DNA of 28,319 nucleotides from a virus. Numbering within the stretch: the stretch's first letter is position 1; each line of letters begins with the position of its first letter. This document shows, piece by piece, positions 2,393-24,505 of this stretch. The notes beneath the pieces were generated by a model. The model was not told the DNA's origin, made no database searches, and was given only the letters and a program-made list of their open reading frames with translations. Location of the stretch: the IMG/VR virus record IMGVR_UViG_3300031785_000042, positions 1 through 28,319 of that record. The stretch is one strand, 5' to 3'. The position numbers and the translations under genes were made by a program.

Positions 2393-3766
2393 ATGGCAGT
2401 TCCTGCTTTTTCCCACCAACAAGAAACCACTGACTTCATACTTAACCATGATCGAGTTCTGATTACATCGGACCCAGGCACAGGTAAAACTCGTGCAGTG
2501 CTGGATGCGTTTGCAGAACTGGTAAAGCAAAACCCAGACAGCCGTATGCTTGTGCTTGCGCCTTTGTCTATTTTGCAAGCCTCATGGGTTGAAGACATTG
2601 AGAAGTTCACACCGCATCTTACTTGTGTTGTGGCTTATTCAAAGAATAGAGAAAAAGCATTTAAAGAATCTGCCAACATCGTCATCACTAACCACGATGC
2701 AATCAAATGGCTGGACAAAAACAAAAAGTATATTGACCAGTTTGATACCATTTGTATTGACGAGTTCACTGCTTACAAGAATCGCACAAGCCAACGATCC
2801 AAAGCAGCAGGTCGAGTCATCAAATCATTTGACAGACGTATTGCTATGAGTGGTACACCTAATGGCAATACTATCCGTGACATATGGCATCCTACTAAAC
2901 TGGTTGATGACGGTGAAAGGTTAGGTCCCTCGTTTTATCCATTCCAACAACAAGTCTGCACACCCAAGCTAATACAGCTAGGTAATCGTGTGGTGACAGA
3001 GTGGTTGGACAAAGACAACGCAGAAGAAATGGTAGCTGTCCAACTGCAAGACATCACGATCCGACACAAGTTAGAGGATTGTATTGACATGCCAGAGCAG
3101 ACAGTCACCATGCGTAAAGTAACTTTGCCTAAAAGAATACAGCAGCAGTATGAAACTTTTGCCAAGGACAGTGTGCTGTACACAGGCAAAACTACCATCA
3201 ATGCTATCAACGCAGGAGTAAAGGTAAAAAAACTCCTGCAGTTATGCACAGGTGCTGTATACAAAGACGATGGCACATCAGAAGGCATCCATACAGAACG
3301 TTACGATCTGGTTATGGAGCTAGTCAAACAACGTAAGCATTCACTGGTTGCATTCAATTGGAAACATGAACGTGACCATATGATTGCTATTGCTGAAAAA
3401 GAAGGGATTGCTTATCGAGTAATTGATGGTGATACACCAGAAGAAAAACGTAAGAAGGTAGTGGATGAGTTGCAGCTGGGAATGTTACAAGTTGTTTTCT
3501 GTCATCCACAAAGCGCAGGTCATGGATTGACTATGACTAAAGCTACATCAATCATTTGGTGTTCGCCTACTTACAATGCGGAACATTATCTTCAGTTTAA
3601 CCGCAGGATCTATCGTGCTGGTCAAACCAAACGAACTGAAATCATTCAGATAGCTGCCAACGATACATGGGAGCCAGAGGTTTACAACAAGCTGGGTCAC
3701 AAAATGAATCGTATGGAAGAGCTACTGAGCATTCTGAAAACAACAACGGAGATCAAACATGGGTAG
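2393..3766 (+). CDS. SNF2/SF2-family DNA helicase
   Basis: This 457-residue protein has all major superfamily 2 motifs of the SNF2-like branch: Walker A DPGTGKT at 27-33, motif Ia APLSIL near 56-61, a DEAH-box variant DEFT at 123-126, motif III SGTP at 153-156, and motif VI QFNRRIYRAGQTK near 403-415, with the RxxRxGQ arginine finger pattern of SNF2 enzymes. It should be an ATP-driven DNA translocase or helicase used in replication, recombination or fork remodelling. Length is close to minimal two-RecA-domain phage SNF2 proteins, with no accessory domain. GAGG about nine bases upstream supports ATG 2393. It overlaps the next small gene by eight bases. Confidence 0.93.
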   Translation: MAVPAFSHQQETTDFILNHDRVLITSDPGTGKTRAVLDAFAELVKQNPDSRMLVLAPLSILQASWVEDIEKFTPHLTCVVAYSKNREKAFKESANIVITNHDAIKWLDKNKKYIDQFDTICIDEFTAYKNRTSQRSKAAGRVIKSFDRRIAMSGTPNGNTIRDIWHPTKLVDDGERLGPSFYPFQQQVCTPKLIQLGNRVVTEWLDKDNAEEMVAVQLQDITIRHKLEDCIDMPEQTVTMRKVTLPKRIQQQYETFAKDSVLYTGKTTINAINAGVKVKKLLQLCTGAVYKDDGTSEGIHTERYDLVMELVKQRKHSLVAFNWKHERDHMIAIAEKEGIAYRVIDGDTPEEKRKKVVDELQLGMLQVVFCHPQSAGHGLTMTKATSIIWCSPTYNAEHYLQFNRRIYRAGQTKRTEIIQIAANDTWEPEVYNKLGHKMNRMEELLSILKTTTEIKHG

Positions 3767-4545: not shown

Positions 4546-5256
4546 ATGTCAAATGAAATGGCAATCGTGTCAGAACAACCTTCATACTTGGTAGACTTTG
4601 ATCAGTCGCAAGCCAAAGGTAATGAAGGGCTTAACTCAACTCAACTGGCTACCCCCAGGATGAAGTTGTTACAAGCTACTAATCCTGAACTTATAGAAGG
4701 TTCAGAAAAATACATTGAAGGAGCAAAAGCAGGTCATTTTGCTGATATTCTTAACAAGAAAACATATGGGCCTGAGTTTCTTGCGATAAACATCACCATG
4801 AAAGAAACATTTGTTATTGAAAATAATTTCAATGCAGGTGGTGGATTCTTTGGGACCTTTAAAACACAACAAGAAGCAGAAGAACAAATTGCTTCTGTGT
4901 TGAAAGAAAATAAAGAACTCAAAGCAGAAAACGTTGCGGTGTGGCGGCATCACGAGCATCTGTTATATCTTGCAGACAGTGATATGAACCTTAGTACAAC
5001 ACCTGTACTTTGGGATCTAAAAAGCAGTGCCATCAAAGCGTCAAATGCTTGGAACACACAGATCGTTAGCCAAGCAGGGCATCGCTTTTCATACATATGG
5101 AAAGTAAAAAATGCCAAAGCTAGTAATGGTTCTAACAGCTGGTTCACATTTGCTACAGAGTTAGCTCGTGGAGATACTGGTAATCCTTTGTACACACCAG
5201 AAAAGCTGGTTAACAATATCAAAGAGATGCTAGATTCTGATGCCTTTAGCTTTTAG
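4546..5256 (+). CDS. Putative phage single-stranded-DNA-binding-like protein
   Basis: The protein is 236 residues. After a short disordered start comes a TPRMKLLQATNPEL segment (about residues 36-49), then a mixed alpha/beta body with LAINITMKETFVIE, a conserved-looking WDLKSSAIKASNAWNTQI stretch (about 153-170) and a C-terminus ending DSDAFSF. An acidic tail ending in aromatic residues is a feature of SSB proteins and T7 gp2.5, where it binds replisome partners. Location just before the polymerase fits. The body is not a clear OB-fold by eye, so the function is inferred. GAGGA upstream supports the ATG. A 135-base gap with inverted repeats follows. Confidence 0.55.
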   Translation: MSNEMAIVSEQPSYLVDFDQSQAKGNEGLNSTQLATPRMKLLQATNPELIEGSEKYIEGAKAGHFADILNKKTYGPEFLAINITMKETFVIENNFNAGGGFFGTFKTQQEAEEQIASVLKENKELKAENVAVWRHHEHLLYLADSDMNLSTTPVLWDLKSSAIKASNAWNTQIVSQAGHRFSYIWKVKNAKASNGSNSWFTFATELARGDTGNPLYTPEKLVNNIKEMLDSDAFSF

Positions 5257-5357: not shown

Positions 5358-5380
5358 AACTACCCACTTCATTAATTTGC

Positions 5381-5386
5381 AGGAGG
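5381..5386 (+). promoter_or_regulatory. Ribosome binding site deciding the GTG start of DNA polymerase
   Basis: AGGAGG five bases upstream of GTG 5392. A start at TTG 5377 would place this sequence inside the gene. Confidence 0.65.
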
Positions 5387-5391
5387 CAAAT

Positions 5392-7188
5392 GTGGATATA
5401 GTAACACTCGACTTTGAGACTTTTTACAGCAAAGAGTTCTCTCTCACCAAGCTTACCATTGTAGAGTATGTCAATGACCCACGGTTTAAAGTGTGGGGCG
5501 TAGGCATCAAGATTAATCAAGACCCTACTGAATGGTATAGCGCAGACGAAACAGAAGATGCAATTGACGCAATAGATTGGGACAACTCAGTCCTTGTGTG
5601 CCATAACACTATGTTCGATGGCTACATACTTACCCAGAAATACAATGCAAAACCTGCCAAATACGTAGACACAGCTTCAATGAGCCGTGGCTGGTGGCCC
5701 CATGAAAAGGCTAATCTCAAAGATTTAGCGATACGACTGTGGCCTGACGATGAAACTATGCGTAAAGGTGAAGAACTAATTACTTGTATGGGGGTAGAAG
5801 ACTTATCACCAGAACAAGATGAAACAATTGGTGGTTACTGCATACAAGACGTTGATCTCACTTATGCAGCATACAAACGTTTCAACCTTGAGTTCCCAGT
5901 ATCAGAAAAAGCAGTCATTGATGCAACGATCCGTATGTTTACAGAGCCAGTGCTACACGTAAACAAAAAGAAATTGCAACAGTACCACGATGAAGAAGTA
6001 GCTACAGCCAAACAACTTATCGAAAATTCTGGTACAACACGAGAAGTAATGGCAAGCAACGTCAAGTTCTCGAAACTACTGGAAGAGATGGACATTACTG
6101 TGCCACTCAAAAAATCTCCCAACACAGGAAAAATGATTCCTGCATTTGGCAAAAACGATAAAGCATATCAACAGCTACAAGACATGTATCCAGAACATAA
6201 AAACTTGTGGGATGCACGTACAGCGGTTAAGTCTCGTATCTCAGAAACCCGTGCTAAACGGTTTATTGATTCAGTCCATGATGACGGAACAATCAGTGTG
6301 CCGCTTAAATACTACGGGGCGCATACAGGTAGGTTTTCTGGTGAGCAAAAGATCAACATGCAGAACCTACCCCGTGGCAGTGTGTTACGTACTTGTCTGA
6401 TTGCTCCACCAAATCAACTGGTATATGTGGCTGACTTGTCAAACATCGAGGCACGTATGACTGCATACTTGGCAGGAGAAGAGAGCCTACTCAATCAATT
6501 TGCCAATAATGTGGACGTATACAGCAGCTTTGCAAGTAGAGTATACAACCAAAACATCAACAAATATGACAACCCAACAGAAAGATTTGTGGGCAAAACA
6601 GCAGTTCTTGGTCTTGGTTATGGCATGGGACATGTAAAGTTTCGATCTGTGTTGGCCTCTGGATCAGGTGGCCCAGTGCTAGAGATACCTGAAGCTGAAG
6701 CACAAAATATCGTAAACACATACCGCATGACCTACGCTACTATCCCTCATCTGTGGAGGGTCCTTGAAAACATTTTTGTAGAAAGACGTTACTACACTTA
6801 CAAAAATTGTTTGACCTTTGATCGAGATAAGATACTCTTACCTAACGGGATGCGATTGATGTATCCCAATCTGCGTATCGAGCAAGGGCAATTGACCTAC
6901 AACACCATGAGGGGTCAAGAAACTACTTGGGGAGGGAGACTCACTGAAAACGCAGTACAGGCACTCAGTAGAATCATTATTACTGACGCAATGGATAAGA
7001 TCAGACGAGAGTTACCAGAGTATCGGATAGCTCTTACCGTCCACGATGAAGTTGTAATCGTAGGGCCTGATACAAATCCTGAAGAAACAATGGAACACAT
7101 AATAGAATGCATGGTGGCAGCACCTGATTGGTGTAGTGAAATACCACTCGATGCAGAAGGTGGATACGACTTATCGTACAGCAAATGA
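5392..7188 (+). CDS. polA: Family A DNA polymerase with 3'-5' exonuclease domain
   Basis: This 598-residue replicative polymerase has a DEDDy proofreading exonuclease at the N-terminus: Exo I D7-x-E9 (LDFET), Exo II N72...D76 (HNTMFD), Exo III Y149-x3-D153 (YCIQD). The polymerase domain has motif A DLSNIEAR (Asp348, Glu353), motif B R398-x3-K402-x7-Y410-G and motif C H551-D552-E553 (TVHDEVV). All catalytic residues are present. The residue equivalent to Phe762 of E. coli Pol I is Leu406. There is no 5'-3' exonuclease domain, as usual for phages. GTG 5392 is chosen over TTG 5377 because AGGAGG at 5381-5386 lies five bases upstream and the protein then begins directly at the exonuclease strand. 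It ends one base before the CsrA-like gene. Confidence 0.96.
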   Translation: MDIVTLDFETFYSKEFSLTKLTIVEYVNDPRFKVWGVGIKINQDPTEWYSADETEDAIDAIDWDNSVLVCHNTMFDGYILTQKYNAKPAKYVDTASMSRGWWPHEKANLKDLAIRLWPDDETMRKGEELITCMGVEDLSPEQDETIGGYCIQDVDLTYAAYKRFNLEFPVSEKAVIDATIRMFTEPVLHVNKKKLQQYHDEEVATAKQLIENSGTTREVMASNVKFSKLLEEMDITVPLKKSPNTGKMIPAFGKNDKAYQQLQDMYPEHKNLWDARTAVKSRISETRAKRFIDSVHDDGTISVPLKYYGAHTGRFSGEQKINMQNLPRGSVLRTCLIAPPNQLVYVADLSNIEARMTAYLAGEESLLNQFANNVDVYSSFASRVYNQNINKYDNPTERFVGKTAVLGLGYGMGHVKFRSVLASGSGGPVLEIPEAEAQNIVNTYRMTYATIPHLWRVLENIFVERRYYTYKNCLTFDRDKILLPNGMRLMYPNLRIEQGQLTYNTMRGQETTWGGRLTENAVQALSRIIITDAMDKIRRELPEYRIALTVHDEVVIVGPDTNPEETMEHIIECMVAAPDWCSEIPLDAEGGYDLSYSK

Positions 7189-7189
7189 C

Positions 7190-7390
7190 ATGACTAGATT
7201 AGTTCTATCAAGAAAAATAAATCAGAGTGTCATCATCCATGAAAGCGGTAAAGTCATAGCTGAGATTAAACTTAGCAAAGTATCCGATAAAACTGTAAAG
7301 CTTACATTTGATGCTGATGAATCTATCAGTATTGATCGAGCAGAAAAATTAAATGGAGATTTAACTACCGATGAAACTGACCTTCCTTGA
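7190..7390 (+). CDS. CsrA/RsmA-like translational regulator
   Basis: This 66-residue protein aligns end to end with CsrA. The N-terminal RLVLSRK corresponds to the LILTRR strand of CsrA (Leu6, Arg8 and Lys9 equal Leu4, Arg6 and Arg7), five beta-strand-like segments follow, and VKLTFDADESISIDRAE corresponds to the VRIGVNAP...VHREE region with Arg50 in place of the RNA-binding Arg44. CsrA dimers bind GGA motifs in mRNA leaders and usually block translation. The gene starts one base after the polymerase stop (TGAcATG) with no obvious Shine-Dalgarno, suggesting coupling, and overlaps the primase gene by 20 bases. The longer frame from 7136 is a polymerase shadow. The target, phage or host mRNA, is unknown. 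Confidence 0.75.
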   Translation: MTRLVLSRKINQSVIIHESGKVIAEIKLSKVSDKTVKLTFDADESISIDRAEKLNGDLTTDETDLP

Positions 7391-9887
7391 ATCAACAAAC
7401 AGTGTTGCTTTAGCCAAGCACATCTCAGGGGACGAGGTTAGAAATTATCCAATGGTGAAAAATTTCACCTCACATGAGCATACTGTTTCGGCTGACGAAG
7501 CAGGGCTTATGGCCTTTGAGCAATATCTTAGAAGCTATGCAAACAAAGGATATTGTCTTCTTAAAGGTAACTTACGGGAGCCATTAGTAAATGAAAGCCG
7601 TGCCAAAAAGTCAGATCGCACAGCGTATACGCAACTCCTAGTATTGGATATTGATAAACTCGTTATCCCTAACACAGCTATACGGCAGAAAAATTTAAAC
7701 AGTGGTGATGTACAATCTATTGCTGAAAAGATCCTGTCCCAAATGCCACCCGAGTTCCAAGAAACAAGCTACATTGCACAGGCATCTGCATCATTTGGAC
7801 GGGACACTAGCAAAGTAAGCATACACATCTTTATGTTTCTTACTGTGCCCATCCCACCCAAAGCATTAAAGCTCTGGTTAAATGCAGCTAACTTTGAAAC
7901 ACAACTATTCACAGATAACTTAACACTTAGTAGCAACGGTCAATCATTATCTTATCCACTAGACGTTAGTATTTCAGAAAATAGTAAGACAGTATTTATT
8001 GCGCCCCCTACGTTTGACCCAGTAGAAGATGACCCATTTGATTCTAAAGATGATCGGATCGTATTGGTTAAACGAAAGAAACACCATATTGATCTTGCAA
8101 GATTTATGAATGACATCAATCCTGAGTCTGTGTTCCAAAAAACAGTAGAAGCAAAGAATAACTTGCGCTCACAGTCAGGGCTAAGCCGTAAGAAAAGTCA
8201 GATCAAAAACATCAAAGTAGGTATGCAGATTGAAGAGGTGTTACAGAACCCTGATCAAATGTCTATCTCTGTATCAGATGACAGCAACCTGCCATACATA
8301 CGGTGCAACGTAAACGGTGGAGACAGCAACGCTTATTACTTTAAGCTCAACTCACCAACGTATATGTACAACTTCAAAGGTGAGCCTATCTTCCCTATCG
8401 AAAAAGCCGATAGAGATTTCTATCTGTCTATCTTTGAACTGTATGAAGATAAGCAACAGGAAATGGGCATAAGCCGCTATCCCGTAGTCATGCGTGATTT
8501 CTTCACTGATCAATATTACAACGGGCTGTTTGATCCATCTCTTGATCAGTTCTCTGATGACTTTCCTCTGACACCTACGTCTAAAGGATCAGTCGAATCA
8601 TTTATGCTGTCACACGGACATCCACCGCCTGACTTTATACCAGAAGCAACCATCTTCTTTGATCCAACAGCTACAGAAAACCAGATTAATATGACTGCAG
8701 CACCTTTCTGGGTCAACATGTATAGGCGAACCAAGTATGTTCTTGAGGCTGACTTGCATAAGAAAGAACTGGAGTACGGTAAAGCTCATACATTGCAGGA
8801 TGACTGCCCTCTCATTGCTACAATCATTAGTCATATACTTGGTAATGGTGAGGAAGAGTTTGAAAGATTCATTAACTGGATGGCGTACATATTCCAGACC
8901 AGACAAAAAACAACTAAAGCCTGGGTACTAGGTGGTGTACAAGGCACAGGTAAAGGTGTCTTCTATTCTAAGATACTTAGACCATTGTTTGGACCAGAGC
9001 ATGTTCCTATGCGTACTCTTAGAAACATTGAGGAAAATTTTAACCTGTATATGCGGCAAGCTTTGTTCCTGATTGTTGATGAGTTTCACATGGGATCAGC
9101 AAGCACTGGAGTTAAACGTGTGGCTGATCAACTTAAGTCAGACATCACAGACGAAGCAATTACTATACGTGCTATGCGTAGTAATCAAACAGCACCACCT
9201 AACTACACTAACTATATTTTCTTAACTAATCGTCCTGATGCCGTTAACTTAGAAATAACTGACAGACGCTATAATATACCGCCACGGCAAGAAGTAGCTT
9301 TGGAAAAAGCACATCCTGATGTCATAGACAACATGGATAAAATAGAGCTTGAGCTACCAAAGTTTGCAGGGATACTACACGGGTTTAAATACGACAAGTA
9401 TCTAGCAACCAGAGTAGCTATCGACAATGCAGCTAAAGAACAGATGCGAGTAGTTAGTATGACTGTATTTGAAGAGTTTTGTAGCTCAATCAAATCAGGT
9501 GACTTGGGATTCTTTGCCGATATACTAGAGATCACTCCAAGTAACGTAATGGATGGCGGCAGAATCCTAACCGCCCAACGGTACGTTAAATCATGGATAG
9601 CAGATAAATTAAACACAGCTTCATATAGCATCATACCTGCTGAACATTTTCGTGCTGTCTATCATGTAATGACAGAACACAATCCAATCATTAACCAAAG
9701 ACAGTTTAAAAAACAACTAAACAAAAATCACATAGACACTGAAACAAGAAAACGCCCTGCGTTTGGGGGAAGAGACAGTAACCCTATTCGTGGCGTTATG
9801 GTAAACTGGACAACACCAGAAGAAACCGCCAAACATTTAGCTGATGAATACTTTGAATCAGAAGATAAGGTGCTACTAAGTGTTTAA
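7371..9887 (+). CDS. Primase-helicase (AEP-type primase fused to SF3/D5-like helicase)
   Basis: This is an 838-residue replicative protein. The N-terminal half looks like an archaeo-eukaryotic primase: motif I VLDID (Asp93, Asp95), motif II SIH (Ser150, His152) and a later YPLDVS strand (Asp198). A linker (about 260-450) leads to an SF3-like AAA+ helicase of the DUF5906/D5 group: Walker A GVQGTGKG at 522-529, Walker B LFLIVDEF (Asp570, Glu571), sensor-like FLTNRPDA around Asn620 and arginine-finger candidates Arg632/Arg633. It would unwind DNA and lay down primers for the polymerase. ATG 7371 lies inside the CsrA-like gene. GGAG at 7355-7358 is a distant Shine-Dalgarno. Confidence 0.9.
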   Translation: MKLTFLESTNSVALAKHISGDEVRNYPMVKNFTSHEHTVSADEAGLMAFEQYLRSYANKGYCLLKGNLREPLVNESRAKKSDRTAYTQLLVLDIDKLVIPNTAIRQKNLNSGDVQSIAEKILSQMPPEFQETSYIAQASASFGRDTSKVSIHIFMFLTVPIPPKALKLWLNAANFETQLFTDNLTLSSNGQSLSYPLDVSISENSKTVFIAPPTFDPVEDDPFDSKDDRIVLVKRKKHHIDLARFMNDINPESVFQKTVEAKNNLRSQSGLSRKKSQIKNIKVGMQIEEVLQNPDQMSISVSDDSNLPYIRCNVNGGDSNAYYFKLNSPTYMYNFKGEPIFPIEKADRDFYLSIFELYEDKQQEMGISRYPVVMRDFFTDQYYNGLFDPSLDQFSDDFPLTPTSKGSVESFMLSHGHPPPDFIPEATIFFDPTATENQINMTAAPFWVNMYRRTKYVLEADLHKKELEYGKAHTLQDDCPLIATIISHILGNGEEEFERFINWMAYIFQTRQKTTKAWVLGGVQGTGKGVFYSKILRPLFGPEHVPMRTLRNIEENFNLYMRQALFLIVDEFHMGSASTGVKRVADQLKSDITDEAITIRAMRSNQTAPPNYTNYIFLTNRPDAVNLEITDRRYNIPPRQEVALEKAHPDVIDNMDKIELELPKFAGILHGFKYDKYLATRVAIDNAAKEQMRVVSMTVFEEFCSSIKSGDLGFFADILEITPSNVMDGGRILTAQRYVKSWIADKLNTASYSIIPAEHFRAVYHVMTEHNPIINQRQFKKQLNKNHIDTETRKRPAFGGRDSNPIRGVMVNWTTPEETAKHLADEYFESEDKVLLSV

Positions 9888-10041
9888 CCTATATATTTTT
9901 GGCATGATAAATGTTTTCTTGTATGGTAGTTATGATAGTTTAGATGAGTGTTTGTTATATAAACAAAGACTTACTACAGCAAAAGTTGCTGAGCATTTTA
10001 ATTTAGAGTGCATCAAAATAGATGAAACTAATACCAGTTGA
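9880..10041 (+). CDS. Small hypothetical protein (53 aa), double overlap
   Basis: GTG 9880 lies inside the last codons of the primase-helicase gene, and the frame runs 53 residues to TGA 10039-10041, 20 bases into the next gene. AAGG at 9867-9870 is nine bases upstream. The product has a hydrophobic/aromatic start (NLYIFGMINVFLYGSY) followed by a helical, charged half (CLLYKQRLTTAKVAEHF). An internal ATG at 9904 is an alternative start. It fills what would otherwise be a 134-base gap in a gap-free operon, which supports it being real. No family was recognised. Confidence 0.55.
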   Translation: MFNLYIFGMINVFLYGSYDSLDECLLYKQRLTTAKVAEHFNLECIKIDETNTS

Positions 10042-10756
10042 GTCGTTGCCATTTGAACGACCAGAAAAATTAGGACCACTCAAAGCATGGAGCTTTTCAG
10101 CACTCAAAACATTTGAGGAATGTGCCTACCGTGCCTATCTTAGCCGTGTACAAAAGATACCTGAACCAACAAACCCAGCAGCATCCCGTGGATCAAAGAT
10201 ACATGAACAAGCAGAAGCCTATGTCAAAGGTGAACTAGGTGAAATGCCTCAAGAGTTAAAAAAGTTTGCCCAAGACTTTGACCATCTCCGTGCCCTCTAT
10301 GCAGATGCAAAAGTAGAACTAGAAGGTGATTGGGGTTTCACTATGGATTGGGAGCCTACTGCATGGGTAGGCAGTACCACCTGGGTACGCATTAAACTAG
10401 ATGCTTTAGTCTTTGAAGAAGACAACTCTGCTAGAGTCATTGACTACAAGACAGGAAAAAAATGGGGTAATGAAATAACACACGGGCAACAGTGTCTACT
10501 GTATGCCATTGGTACGTTCTATCGCTACCCAGAAATAGAAGCTGTGCAAACAGAACTCTGGTATCTTGATAAACAACAAACCACTAAAAAATTTTACACT
10601 CGCAATGAAGCATTAAACTTTGCTGCAAGTTGGCACAACCGTGGTGTGGCTATGACCACAGAAGAAAACTTTACGCCTTCACCTAGTGCAAGTGCGTGCC
10701 GTTGGTGCAGTTACAAAATAGGAAACCCTGCTCCTTGTGAATGGGGAGTAACTTAA
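10022..10756 (+). CDS. Cas4/RecB-like PD-(D/E)XK nuclease with Fe-S cysteines
   Basis: This 244-residue nuclease is of the RecB/Cas4 type. The core residues are visible in order: His61 (GSKIHEQAE), Asp127 (KLDAL), Asp141 and Lys143 in VIDYKTGK, and Gln157 (HGQQCLLYA, motif QxxxY). Four cysteines sit where Cas4 and AddB place a [4Fe-4S] cluster: Cys34 (FEECAYRAYL), Cys226 and Cys229 (CRWC) and Cys239. The expected activity is single-strand-directed exonuclease or end processing for recombination or replication. Not CRISPR-associated here: no cas genes or repeats are in the window. The start has no strong Shine-Dalgarno and overlaps the preceding small gene. It overlaps the DUF3310 gene. Confidence 0.88.
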   Translation: MKLIPVESLPFERPEKLGPLKAWSFSALKTFEECAYRAYLSRVQKIPEPTNPAASRGSKIHEQAEAYVKGELGEMPQELKKFAQDFDHLRALYADAKVELEGDWGFTMDWEPTAWVGSTTWVRIKLDALVFEEDNSARVIDYKTGKKWGNEITHGQQCLLYAIGTFYRYPEIEAVQTELWYLDKQQTTKKFYTRNEALNFAASWHNRGVAMTTEENFTPSPSASACRWCSYKIGNPAPCEWGVT

Positions 10757-19787: not shown

Positions 19788-21554
19788 TTAACCATAACGT
19801 ATATCTGCATTTTTAGGATTCCCAGAGGTATCTCTATCTTCCACTGCCTGATTTTCAGGAACTAACGGGTAAAACATATCTTCCTTTTTAAAATAATAGG
19901 TTGAGTTAAGATCACTTGGACTTGTAATCCCAGGGTGAAGCGCAATGTTAACCGTTGATCCAGCAGACGCATCTGCTAATGCGATAGCAGGAGTGTAAAA
20001 AGTTCCTGCCTTAGTCGGGTTCCAATTAGTAGGCGAGTATTGTCTTTGAGATACTGTATCTTGAGCATTATAGTTAAAGCTCGTTGAGCCTATATAGGTT
20101 TCATTCCCAGGCACACCTTTATCAAATTGTGGCACCAAAGTGTAACGAGTATTTAAGGTGTCGGTATCTGCTGTCGTCGTATAAGACGTTTCAAACTGAG
20201 CGTTTCCAGATACAGGAAGTTTAATACAAAAAGACCCTGCGGTGGTGTTTCCATCATCAGCATATATATGTAGAATCTCTTCAGAGGCAACGTAACATCT
20301 TCCTCTGGGACCAGCATTAGTATAGCCTTTCTCATTCCAAAAATAACTGCCATGAGCATAGTTATTAGAATTTTGAAAATTAGCTGGCATCGTTAAAGTT
20401 TCATAAGCACTCACTGTAAAAGCATTTGTTGAGTCATTTAAAGTATATCTTTGGCAATAAAAGTTAGCGTTAGTTGGTCTACTTACTACCCAAAAAACCA
20501 AAGGATTTTTAGTTTGAAAAATCACTGCTTGTTCATTTAAATAAGTAGGACTTCCCGTTGGTTGTGTTCCTGAAAAAGTACAATCAGCATCTGTTGCAGA
20601 ACCATTAGCAGCGATTGTAATCATTTTGGCTTTTAAGTTGTAAGGACTTGATACGTCACAATAAAAATAAATAAAAGTACCGTTTGCATCATTTATTTTG
20701 AAAACTTTAGAAACCCTATCATCATAAGCTAAAGCAGAATAATCTAATGTTGTAACAGCCGTACCTGGGCTTTTAGTCCCAGATGTAGCTAATAAATAAG
20801 TTAGTATCTCTGGACCCCCTGAAGGGTCAAATCCACTATTTCCTGAAGATACCCCCTTGGTCCAACTAGACAAGAAAACTGTATCGCTCCTAGCGGTAGC
20901 TTCAAAATAATTTCTACCAGCAGATACTTGGTTGTTTATATTTGATTGTTGCCCCATATTATATTCGTTTTTGTAGTTACTGATAGACAAGTAGTAACCA
21001 GATTTAGAACACTGTACCCATTTTTTCATTACATAATAAGTGGGGAATAGGCTCATATACCGAGTGGTTGTAAGCGAAAAATACCAGTAACTTGCATCAT
21101 CAAATAAATACTTCATTTGAAAATGGCTTTGCCCTGGATACCAACCGTAATTTCCTGCGGAAAATGTTGTGCCAGATTGATCGTTTGCACTCTCACCAGA
21201 AGTTCCTTCATCAGTGATACCAAAGTAAGCATAAGCAGAGTTGTGATAGGGGGCGTTGTTGTTTCCTGAATGCGAGGTTTCTGTAATCGCAACAAAATGA
21301 CCTCCTAAATTGGGGGTGCTAAAGTCTCCTCCAATCGGAACAAACCAATCTGCATTATAACCACTAACCGTAACTTGATTGTACGGACCTGTTTCCGTAT
21401 ATGATTGATCACCAAGGGCTACGGCAGGATCAAATAGCCGCCCATCGCTTAAAAACGCATAGGATTTCCCTGCTACCACATCTACAGCACATACAGCCGT
21501 TGATGCTTTAAGTACATCTTTGCTACCGCCACCACTGCCACCTAAAACTGCCAT
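19788..21554 (-). CDS. Tail fibre/adhesin protein B (588 aa)
   Basis: This 588-residue Ser/Thr/Asn/Tyr/Gly-rich protein with dense beta-strand pattern and few charged residues is typical of receptor-binding fibres. It starts VLGGSGGGSKD, resembling the KLGGSTGG start of the 716-residue protein upstream; both follow a connector protein that shares a C-terminal domain. The body contains many aromatic-rich strands (YAYFGITDEG; YWYFSLTTTRY). I recognise no enzyme motif, so depolymerase activity is not supported. The start has GGAGAA at good spacing. Confidence 0.65.
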   Translation of the reverse strand: MAVLGGSGGGSKDVLKASTAVCAVDVVAGKSYAFLSDGRLFDPAVALGDQSYTETGPYNQVTVSGYNADWFVPIGGDFSTPNLGGHFVAITETSHSGNNNAPYHNSAYAYFGITDEGTSGESANDQSGTTFSAGNYGWYPGQSHFQMKYLFDDASYWYFSLTTTRYMSLFPTYYVMKKWVQCSKSGYYLSISNYKNEYNMGQQSNINNQVSAGRNYFEATARSDTVFLSSWTKGVSSGNSGFDPSGGPEILTYLLATSGTKSPGTAVTTLDYSALAYDDRVSKVFKINDANGTFIYFYCDVSSPYNLKAKMITIAANGSATDADCTFSGTQPTGSPTYLNEQAVIFQTKNPLVFWVVSRPTNANFYCQRYTLNDSTNAFTVSAYETLTMPANFQNSNNYAHGSYFWNEKGYTNAGPRGRCYVASEEILHIYADDGNTTAGSFCIKLPVSGNAQFETSYTTTADTDTLNTRYTLVPQFDKGVPGNETYIGSTSFNYNAQDTVSQRQYSPTNWNPTKAGTFYTPAIALADASAGSTVNIALHPGITSPSDLNSTYYFKKEDMFYPLVPENQAVEDRDTSGNPKNADIRYG

Positions 21555-22073: not shown

Positions 22074-22355
22074 TTAACTCCCTAGTTCTGGTTTGGTATC
22101 TGGAAAGTCAGAAGTGCTAGGCCAATCGCGTAACTTTGCTCGATAAGTTTTATACGCATTATGTTGAGAATGGTCTGTAACTGAAACTATCCAATCAGTA
22201 TTTATCAACTCTTGGTCTCTCCAAGACCTAGCAGTTTCTTCTGCGGTTGGGATTGGTCCTTGTGTCCATTTAATGATTAGACCATTTTCATTTTTTACAA
22301 GTTCATCCCCTTCTACTGGGTCTTTGTCAGGATTTGTTAAATTACTTATTCCCAT
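22074..22355 (-). CDS. Phage tail assembly chaperone-like protein (93 aa)
   Basis: The protein is 93 residues. It contains TARSWRDQELINTDWIVSVT followed by DHSQHNAYKTYRAKLRDWPSTSDFP (about residues 61-85), the pattern of the phage tail assembly chaperone family PF16778: R-x2-L-x2-TDW, then YR-x-LRD-x-P-x3-FP. Members lie beside fibre genes and are thought to help fibre folding or attachment. It starts at ATG 22355, overlapping the stop of adhesin A (TAATG), so it is coupled to it. Confidence 0.8.
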   Translation of the reverse strand: MGISNLTNPDKDPVEGDELVKNENGLIIKWTQGPIPTAEETARSWRDQELINTDWIVSVTDHSQHNAYKTYRAKLRDWPSTSDFPDTKPELGS

Positions 22356-24505
22356 TAACCTTCTCCCACTATTTTGTAAGCTACATTCACAGAGGTCGCA
22401 GTAGCAGTAGACATTCTTTGTACTCTAAAACTTTCATTAAATTTTAAATTAGCATGATTAAGATAACCTGCTCTATTTGAGGTAGGCTTCACAAGCTCAC
22501 CTACGACAGAGAGTGGCTGTGCTGTTCCAGTTCCATGAATACCTGTTGAGTAGATTTGAACACCATCAATAAAAACATTTACACCAAAATTAGAGTTTGC
22601 GTAAACCGTTCCTGCATATCCAGTAATAAAAAATAAAACTCTACCTGACCCAGTTACGTTAATTAAATCATTACTACCTGTAACAGTAACGGCAAAAACA
22701 TCAGTGTGATGTTGAATTTCACCTGTCCAACTATAACCGCTAGTAAAGTCAGTCTCAAAACCTGAAGTTGTAAGACCTGTTGTCACATCTTTAAAAAGTT
22801 CAGTATCTTTATCAGGGATAGCTACTTGAATATCTCTTCCTACATTTATTTCGGTTGCGCTAAGTGCTGTGCCATAAAAAGCAAAAGGGGAAGTTGTTGG
22901 TTTGTTTTCAACAAGTGCGCCAGTAGGATCAAAAAAGTATTTTGTTCCAGGTATCTTTCCACTGGTCGTTTGCGTTGCCCCTGACAGATTAAGCGTAAAG
23001 GTATTACCATTACTTGCTCCTGTTTTTGCACTTCCTGATAAAAGGTTCATATCAAAATCAGATGCACTAATGCTATGAAAACGACAATAATTAGCCCCTT
23101 GACCACCAGCGTAAGGTACAGTATCTAATTTTGGGTACATTAAATAGTTGCCTGTGCCGCCAAAACCAGTTACAGCAACATGATTTTCAGCATCACTTTG
23201 CAAGTCAAAGGGTCTGCCTCTTGCAGTTGCTCCATAAGTAGTAGAAGCACCAGCAACCGTTTCTTTTAAATTAACAGGATTACCTGCACTATCTACGCTA
23301 AAAACTACTTTATAAATAGTTGTTTCAAGTGCATTACTTGTTGATGCGTCTTTAGTATAAAAACCTGCAAATTGATCAGCGACTCCATTTAAAACATGAA
23401 GTCCCATGATTCTAGTTACACCTGTTGCATAAGAACCCCAGACTCCATCTTTAACTTTTCCTGCGGTAAAAGCACTGCCTGTATTTGTTAACGTGATTGC
23501 CGCCCCAAACCTGCACTGACAAGCAATTCTTCCATTAGTTGCTGCCATAGAAACTACTTGAGGATAGTTGCTTCCTTGAGCAAGCTCTGACCCAGCTAAA
23601 TCGTTATTTATTCCCATCACACGGTAATGTGATTCACTCAATGCTCCACTACCATCAATGTCGAATGCTGTAATAATTATATTTGAGCTATTATCAGCGG
23701 CTCCTGTCATTGTAAGAATTTGATCGTTTTCAGCATCGTAACAAGCGGTATGCCATTCTGTAGAATTATTAGCATGAACTTGACTGCTAGTGACTGCTGT
23801 CCCTAACGTAGCAGCATCTGCTGCTGTAGAATCAGAAGAATAATTGACTTGTTGCACTCTTGCCCCACGATCATTAGAGCCTCCCCTACAACAGTAATAA
23901 ATTCGACCAGAAGCATCCTTTACTAGAACACCGTGGTATGCTCTATTTGCTGTAGCATAAGGGTCTGATGTTCCTGTAGACATATAGACCGTACCAGTAG
24001 TGCCGTTTGTTGTTTTAAATCTCGCAAACTGCAACTGATCGCTTGAGTTTCTTAATGCAACCAACCAAGCTGTATTTGTTTGATCCCAAATCATATCTAA
24101 AATTACTTGATCCCCTGGACCCATATTGCCTAGTAATGTGCCTCCAGAGATATAAGCACCAGGATTTGCGGCAGAAGAAGAATAAGCACCAGTAGTAGCA
24201 ACGGTCATAGGAAAAATATAAACCCCCCCATTAGTTTGACTAAACGTATGAGAGGCCCAAGCAGCCCTTTGATTTGCTGCATCCATACGGTACAAATCAC
24301 CGTAAGGATAATAAGTTGAATTATCATTGTGATTCCAATAAGGTCCACTTTGGGTTTGAACACCATCGCTAATATTGCCAGCCGCTTTTTTGCCTTTACC
24401 GTTAGACTGTATAATAATGCCGTCACCAGCCGATACCGTTCCAGAAGCGGTTAACGTCATTTCTGTTGGTTCTCCTCCTGTTGAGCCACCTAATTTAACA
24501 GGCAT
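22355..24505 (-). CDS. Tail fibre/adhesin protein A (716 aa)
   Basis: The protein is 716 residues, Gly/Thr/Ser/Asn-rich, beta-strand dense. The N-terminus KLGGSTGGEPTEMTLTASGTVSAGDGIII is followed by stretches with a six- or seven-bladed look (repeated IYYCCRGGSNDRGA, ILTMTGAADNSSNI, RIACQCRFGAAI), hinting at a propeller-like middle domain, and a C-terminal jelly-roll-like part (about 590-716). It is probably the receptor-binding fibre or a branch of it. AAGGAGG precedes the ATG. It lies between connector A (24508-25779) and the chaperone-like gene. Confidence 0.65.
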   Translation of the reverse strand: MPVKLGGSTGGEPTEMTLTASGTVSAGDGIIIQSNGKGKKAAGNISDGVQTQSGPYWNHNDNSTYYPYGDLYRMDAANQRAAWASHTFSQTNGGVYIFPMTVATTGAYSSSAANPGAYISGGTLLGNMGPGDQVILDMIWDQTNTAWLVALRNSSDQLQFARFKTTNGTTGTVYMSTGTSDPYATANRAYHGVLVKDASGRIYYCCRGGSNDRGARVQQVNYSSDSTAADAATLGTAVTSSQVHANNSTEWHTACYDAENDQILTMTGAADNSSNIIITAFDIDGSGALSESHYRVMGINNDLAGSELAQGSNYPQVVSMAATNGRIACQCRFGAAITLTNTGSAFTAGKVKDGVWGSYATGVTRIMGLHVLNGVADQFAGFYTKDASTSNALETTIYKVVFSVDSAGNPVNLKETVAGASTTYGATARGRPFDLQSDAENHVAVTGFGGTGNYLMYPKLDTVPYAGGQGANYCRFHSISASDFDMNLLSGSAKTGASNGNTFTLNLSGATQTTSGKIPGTKYFFDPTGALVENKPTTSPFAFYGTALSATEINVGRDIQVAIPDKDTELFKDVTTGLTTSGFETDFTSGYSWTGEIQHHTDVFAVTVTGSNDLINVTGSGRVLFFITGYAGTVYANSNFGVNVFIDGVQIYSTGIHGTGTAQPLSVVGELVKPTSNRAGYLNHANLKFNESFRVQRMSTATATSVNVAYKIVGEG

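Follow-up and report, generated by a model that had tools for sequence, protein, structure and literature searches.

Genes of the CsrA/RsmA family are already known from phages. Csr homologues were listed in 30 phages in 2020 (PMC7366521), phage RsmA proteins found in GenBank and IMG/VR were proposed in 2021 to be anti-CRISPR regulators (PMC8450108), and in 2025 the knock-down of csrA in the E. coli phage PTXU04 was reported to result in smaller plaques (PMC11879866). Phage csrA is usually discussed as a captured host gene that acts on the host. The genes annotated so far in Lessievirus DC1/Bcep22, F116-like phages, VvAW1 and Vibrio podoviruses (PMC7366521) are found in head, early or recombination regions, and that of PTXU04 (gp28) adjoins the holin and lysozyme genes. 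The protein analyzed here is phage-encoded like gp28, but its gene lies between a DNA polymerase and a primase gene in a 28.3-kb virus record, the whole of which we refer to as the window. When the window protein was used as a tblastn query, none of the csrA genes of DC1/Bcep22, the F116-like phages, VvAW1 or the Vibrio podoviruses was recovered, nor any convincing isolate member of its subfamily. We found no isolate phage with csrA between polymerase and primase, the isolate genes lying elsewhere, and no description of a lineage in which csrA is fixed at this place in the open-licence literature. Phage csrA genes as such are thus not new, but this position appears previously unreported within the literature searched.

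The csrA-like gene and its product

The gene extends over positions 7190-7390 of the plus strand and encodes a protein of 66 aa plus stop (MTRLVLSRKINQSVIIHESGKVIAEIKLSKVSDKTVKLTFDADESISIDRAEKLNGDLTTDETDLP). As proposed in a first-pass annotation, it is placed between the polymerase and primase genes, with its end overlapping the start of the latter: it opens 1 nt past the polymerase stop codon (TGA, 7186-7188), has no Shine-Dalgarno sequence of its own, and shares its last 20 nt with the beginning of the primase gene (ATG 7371). The product matches the Pfam CsrA family PF02599 (E-value 4.3e-9, 36.6 bits versus a curated cut-off of 27; 3.1e-10 in a search of the whole record), which was the match on which that annotation had beforehand made its CsrA assignment depend, as well as the PHROG family of CsrA-like regulators phrog_9500 (8.1e-5). 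This similarity is far outside chance, and the open reading frame is a bona fide CsrA-family gene. The score against the NCBIfam equivalog model TIGR00202 (csrA) falls below the cut-off (32.2 versus 70.1 bits), and the protein is therefore a member of the CsrA family and, by that rule, not an orthologue of bacterial CsrA. Among close relatives (86-94% identity) the dN/dS ratio of the gene is 0.12-0.29, which indicates that the protein is under purifying selection.

The landmarks pointed out earlier (L6, R8, K9 and R50) are all present in the translation, and L6, R8, K9, I48 and R50 correspond to L4, R6, R7, V42 and R44 of E. coli CsrA. Two AlphaFold monomer models, built with 21 and 58 relatives (pLDDT 74 and 83.5, respectively), both had only CsrA, RsmA or RsmE structures among their 14 best PDB matches. 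For the model with the higher pLDDT, TM-scores by target ranged from 0.61 to 0.84; the Foldseek probability was 1.00, with E-values of only ~0.01 owing to the very small size of the protein. The window protein is thus predicted to adopt the CsrA protomer fold, in line with the earlier expectation, and would presumably form the interlaced homodimer. Across 77 distinct relatives, with identities to the window protein down to 29%, L4, R8, A42 and R50 are invariant (77/77), K or R occupies position 9 and I (76/77) or V position 48, and E52 is kept in 75/77, while the surface loop joining strands 1 and 2 is variable. The conserved positions correspond to the first and last strands of CsrA, which contact RNA, and the putative RNA-contact residues are therefore invariant or nearly so. 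Domain, predicted protomer fold and RNA-contact residues are common to the window protein and bacterial CsrA/RsmA/RsmE, from which it differs by a longer loop between strands 1 and 2, a short C-terminus, and a D in place of the proline of the APKEV motif.

The surrounding genes form a replication module on the plus strand. The upstream neighbor encodes a family A DNA polymerase with a 3'-5' exonuclease motif (VDIVTLDFETF...; 5392-7188; PF00476, 1e-31; PHROG DNA polymerase, 9e-79); based on its Shine-Dalgarno sequence and homologues, its start is probably the GTG at 5392, the mechanical open reading frame opening at 5377. The downstream neighbor encodes an 838-aa primase-like protein with a DUF5906 domain (7371-9887; PF19263, 5e-17; PHROG DNA primase, 9e-21). 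The module further comprises a DNA helicase (2393-3766; PHROG 62, 4e-106), a Pam3 gp34-like protein (4546-5256; PF23977, 3e-35) and a PD-(D/E)XK exonuclease (10022-10756; PF12705, 3e-21). Helicase and exonuclease are encoded on the strand of csrA; tail, internal virion and other structural genes are on the opposite strand. Two open reading frames of the structural module (19788-21554 and 22355-24505, minus strand; 588 and 716 aa) have no PHROGs match. No Rfam RNA family and no tRNA (ARAGORN) was detected in the window.

Gene order, inheritance and translation of csrA

We surveyed related loci using the primase as anchor, and thus blind to csrA, in the best 80 of 439 viral-contig relatives plus one contig from a bacterial bin. 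All 82 loci that keep both neighbors (on these 81 contigs, L036 and L184 being one contig) have the order polymerase-csrA-primase. An 83rd locus (L153) carries csrA on a contig that ends before the polymerase, and further loci anchored on csrA itself showed the identical order. The three-gene coupling, which the first-pass annotation had called unusual and for which it had suggested a synteny survey, is thus a real and fixed feature of the whole lineage. Pairwise distances of csrA agree with those of the polymerase (Spearman 0.85) and the primase (0.81; permutation maximum 0.12), indicating that the three genes have been inherited together. csrA thus belongs, as a fixed component, to the replication operon of an uncultured, mostly marine phage lineage.

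In a more distant sister lineage (~40% polymerase identity) another gene follows the polymerase, and no CsrA was found in its records, several of which are at least 50 kb long. Aeromonas phage phiA008 and Pseudomonas phage KPP25, the nearest isolates by polymerase and primase (~30-34% identity), differ from the window phage in that CsrA is absent from their genomes, as it is from those of Rollin and RHph_TM3_14A. In phiA008 (L007), an unannotated small C4 zinc-finger-like open reading frame at about 4790-4985 takes the place of csrA between polymerase and primase.

The csrA start lies at -11 to +8 nt relative to the polymerase stop codon in 77 loci, none of which has a Shine-Dalgarno-like sequence ahead of csrA (0/77 versus 77/77 for the primase). 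Based on this spacing and the missing Shine-Dalgarno sequence, csrA translation is probably coupled to that of the polymerase.

Candidate hairpins at the polymerase and primase leaders

An ATGGAG in the primase leader had been put forward as a possible site of autoregulation. The motif is indeed found at 7353-7358, but its GGA is itself the primase Shine-Dalgarno sequence, and as GGA belongs to any good Shine-Dalgarno, it proves nothing alone; what stands is that a 6-bp hairpin carries it in its loop. This candidate CsrA site (TTAAAT-GGAG-ATTTAA, 7349-7364, plus strand) is weak (-0.6 kcal/mol). A second candidate, at the polymerase ribosome-binding site and with the polymerase Shine-Dalgarno sequence and its GGA in the loop, lies at 5375-5391 on the same strand (ATTTGC-AGGAG-GCAAAT). 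Using a criterion chosen after the hairpins were seen (a stem of 6 or more Watson-Crick pairs closing a 4-6-nt loop that contains GGA), these two are the only such hairpins on the plus strand of the window, versus 0.74 per strand expected by shuffling.

In the relatives, the primase Shine-Dalgarno often lies in a GGA loop closed by differing stems (AAGGCUC-AGGAG-GAGCUUU, UUCUC/GAGAA, GCUC/GAGC). The sequences flanking it pair better than swapped flanks (mean stem 3.35 versus 2.61, p 0.0005), and the polymerase leaders display a weaker excess (p 0.0095), which those of the sister lineage without CsrA do not show (p 0.79, n 15). A degree of excess pairing is also seen in other, ordinary leaders, and several clades (L136, L038-L045, L144-L149) have no primase hairpin. 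We consider the polymerase and primase leaders a lead as CsrA targets, and not a demonstration. A general regulon of GGA hairpins at phage ribosome-binding sites is unsupported in comparison with the CsrA-less sister lineage, Shine-Dalgarno hairpins with GGA loops showing no phage-wide enrichment over that lineage (27.7% versus 25.7%).

Other structures were observed around the locus. The leader AAGTTC-AAGGAG-GAACT found in the MTNK clade resembles a perfect CsrA site; judging from the sequences, it can be explained as the conserved coding end of the upstream gene. In a freshwater clade (L143, L150-L152), the csrA 3' end encodes strong, sequence-variable hairpins upstream of the primase, such as CUCUUGUUUAUCA-GCGGA-UGAUAAACAAGAG in L143. 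Where csrA and primase are separated by 30-75 nt (L156-L208 and others), we found a dispersed intergenic palindrome, TATTAG-N5-CTAATA, at several gene boundaries (81 copies versus 0.7 expected; absent from the window), which might serve as an operator or RNA element.

Possible roles of the phage CsrA

The location of csrA, locked between polymerase and primase and inherited with them, suggests that its targets are the replication genes of the phage itself. Ribosomes finishing the polymerase would re-initiate on csrA, such that CsrA output would be proportional to polymerase output; the presumed dimer would bind the GGA-loop hairpins overlapping the polymerase and primase ribosome-binding sites and damp translation of both genes, and the resulting feedback loop would set the amount or timing of the replication proteins. 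That the phage CsrA exerts feedback control on its own replication genes is a reading to which we give a little less than even credence. More tentatively, CsrA may have been domesticated as a dedicated replisome regulator, translated only through coupling to the polymerase and repressing polymerase and primase through the GGA-loop hairpins.

The phage CsrA could also act mainly by binding host mRNAs or Csr sRNAs, and so redirect metabolism or repress defence genes (e.g., CRISPR-Cas), with the site by the polymerase only timing its expression, a role that we regard as possible if somewhat doubtful. RsmA represses CRISPR-Cas in Serratia, and it has been proposed that RsmA homologues of phages take advantage of this (PMC8450108); the plaque phenotype of PTXU04 (PMC11879866) fits such a role as well, as does the missing phage-wide enrichment of GGA hairpins. 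Yet, the phage RsmA proteins of the Serratia study are highly similar to bacterial ones (PMC8450108), whereas the window subfamily is diverged and was co-inherited with polymerase and primase, not repeatedly captured. The only MAG contig with a relative (L136, 60.8 kb, labelled Neomarinimicrobiota) carries the polymerase-csrA-primase block, and the MAG has no CsrA besides the phage copy, which also speaks against a host target, although the binning is unsure. CsrA occurs in 20 of 80 Neomarinimicrobiota genomes. A phage contig in a bin may be a host hint or a binning error and does not prove which host is infected.

That the gene is always found between those of two replication proteins, and is inherited in step with them, would also suit a CsrA fold kept for another job, such as an interaction with the polymerase or primase protein, or a place in the replisome as a structural subunit or RNA chaperone, with no sequence-specific control of mRNAs. 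This seems unlikely, as the best-conserved residues are those predicted to contact RNA and it is the surface loop that varies. We consider it more improbable still that the hairpins in the leaders reflect chance or the usual structure near Shine-Dalgarno sequences, with the true targets elsewhere in the phage transcriptome; the excess pairing in other leaders and the patchy occurrence of the hairpin are in its favor, but the only two such hairpins on the plus strand are both found at the genes flanking csrA.

In this widespread aquatic phage lineage, csrA is a fixed core gene, and two specific hairpins are now available as testable candidate targets of the proposed feedback on replication. Control of replication genes is known from phage T4, where it is exerted by RegA and gp43; the regulation proposed here would be similar, but carried out by a protein of a different family.
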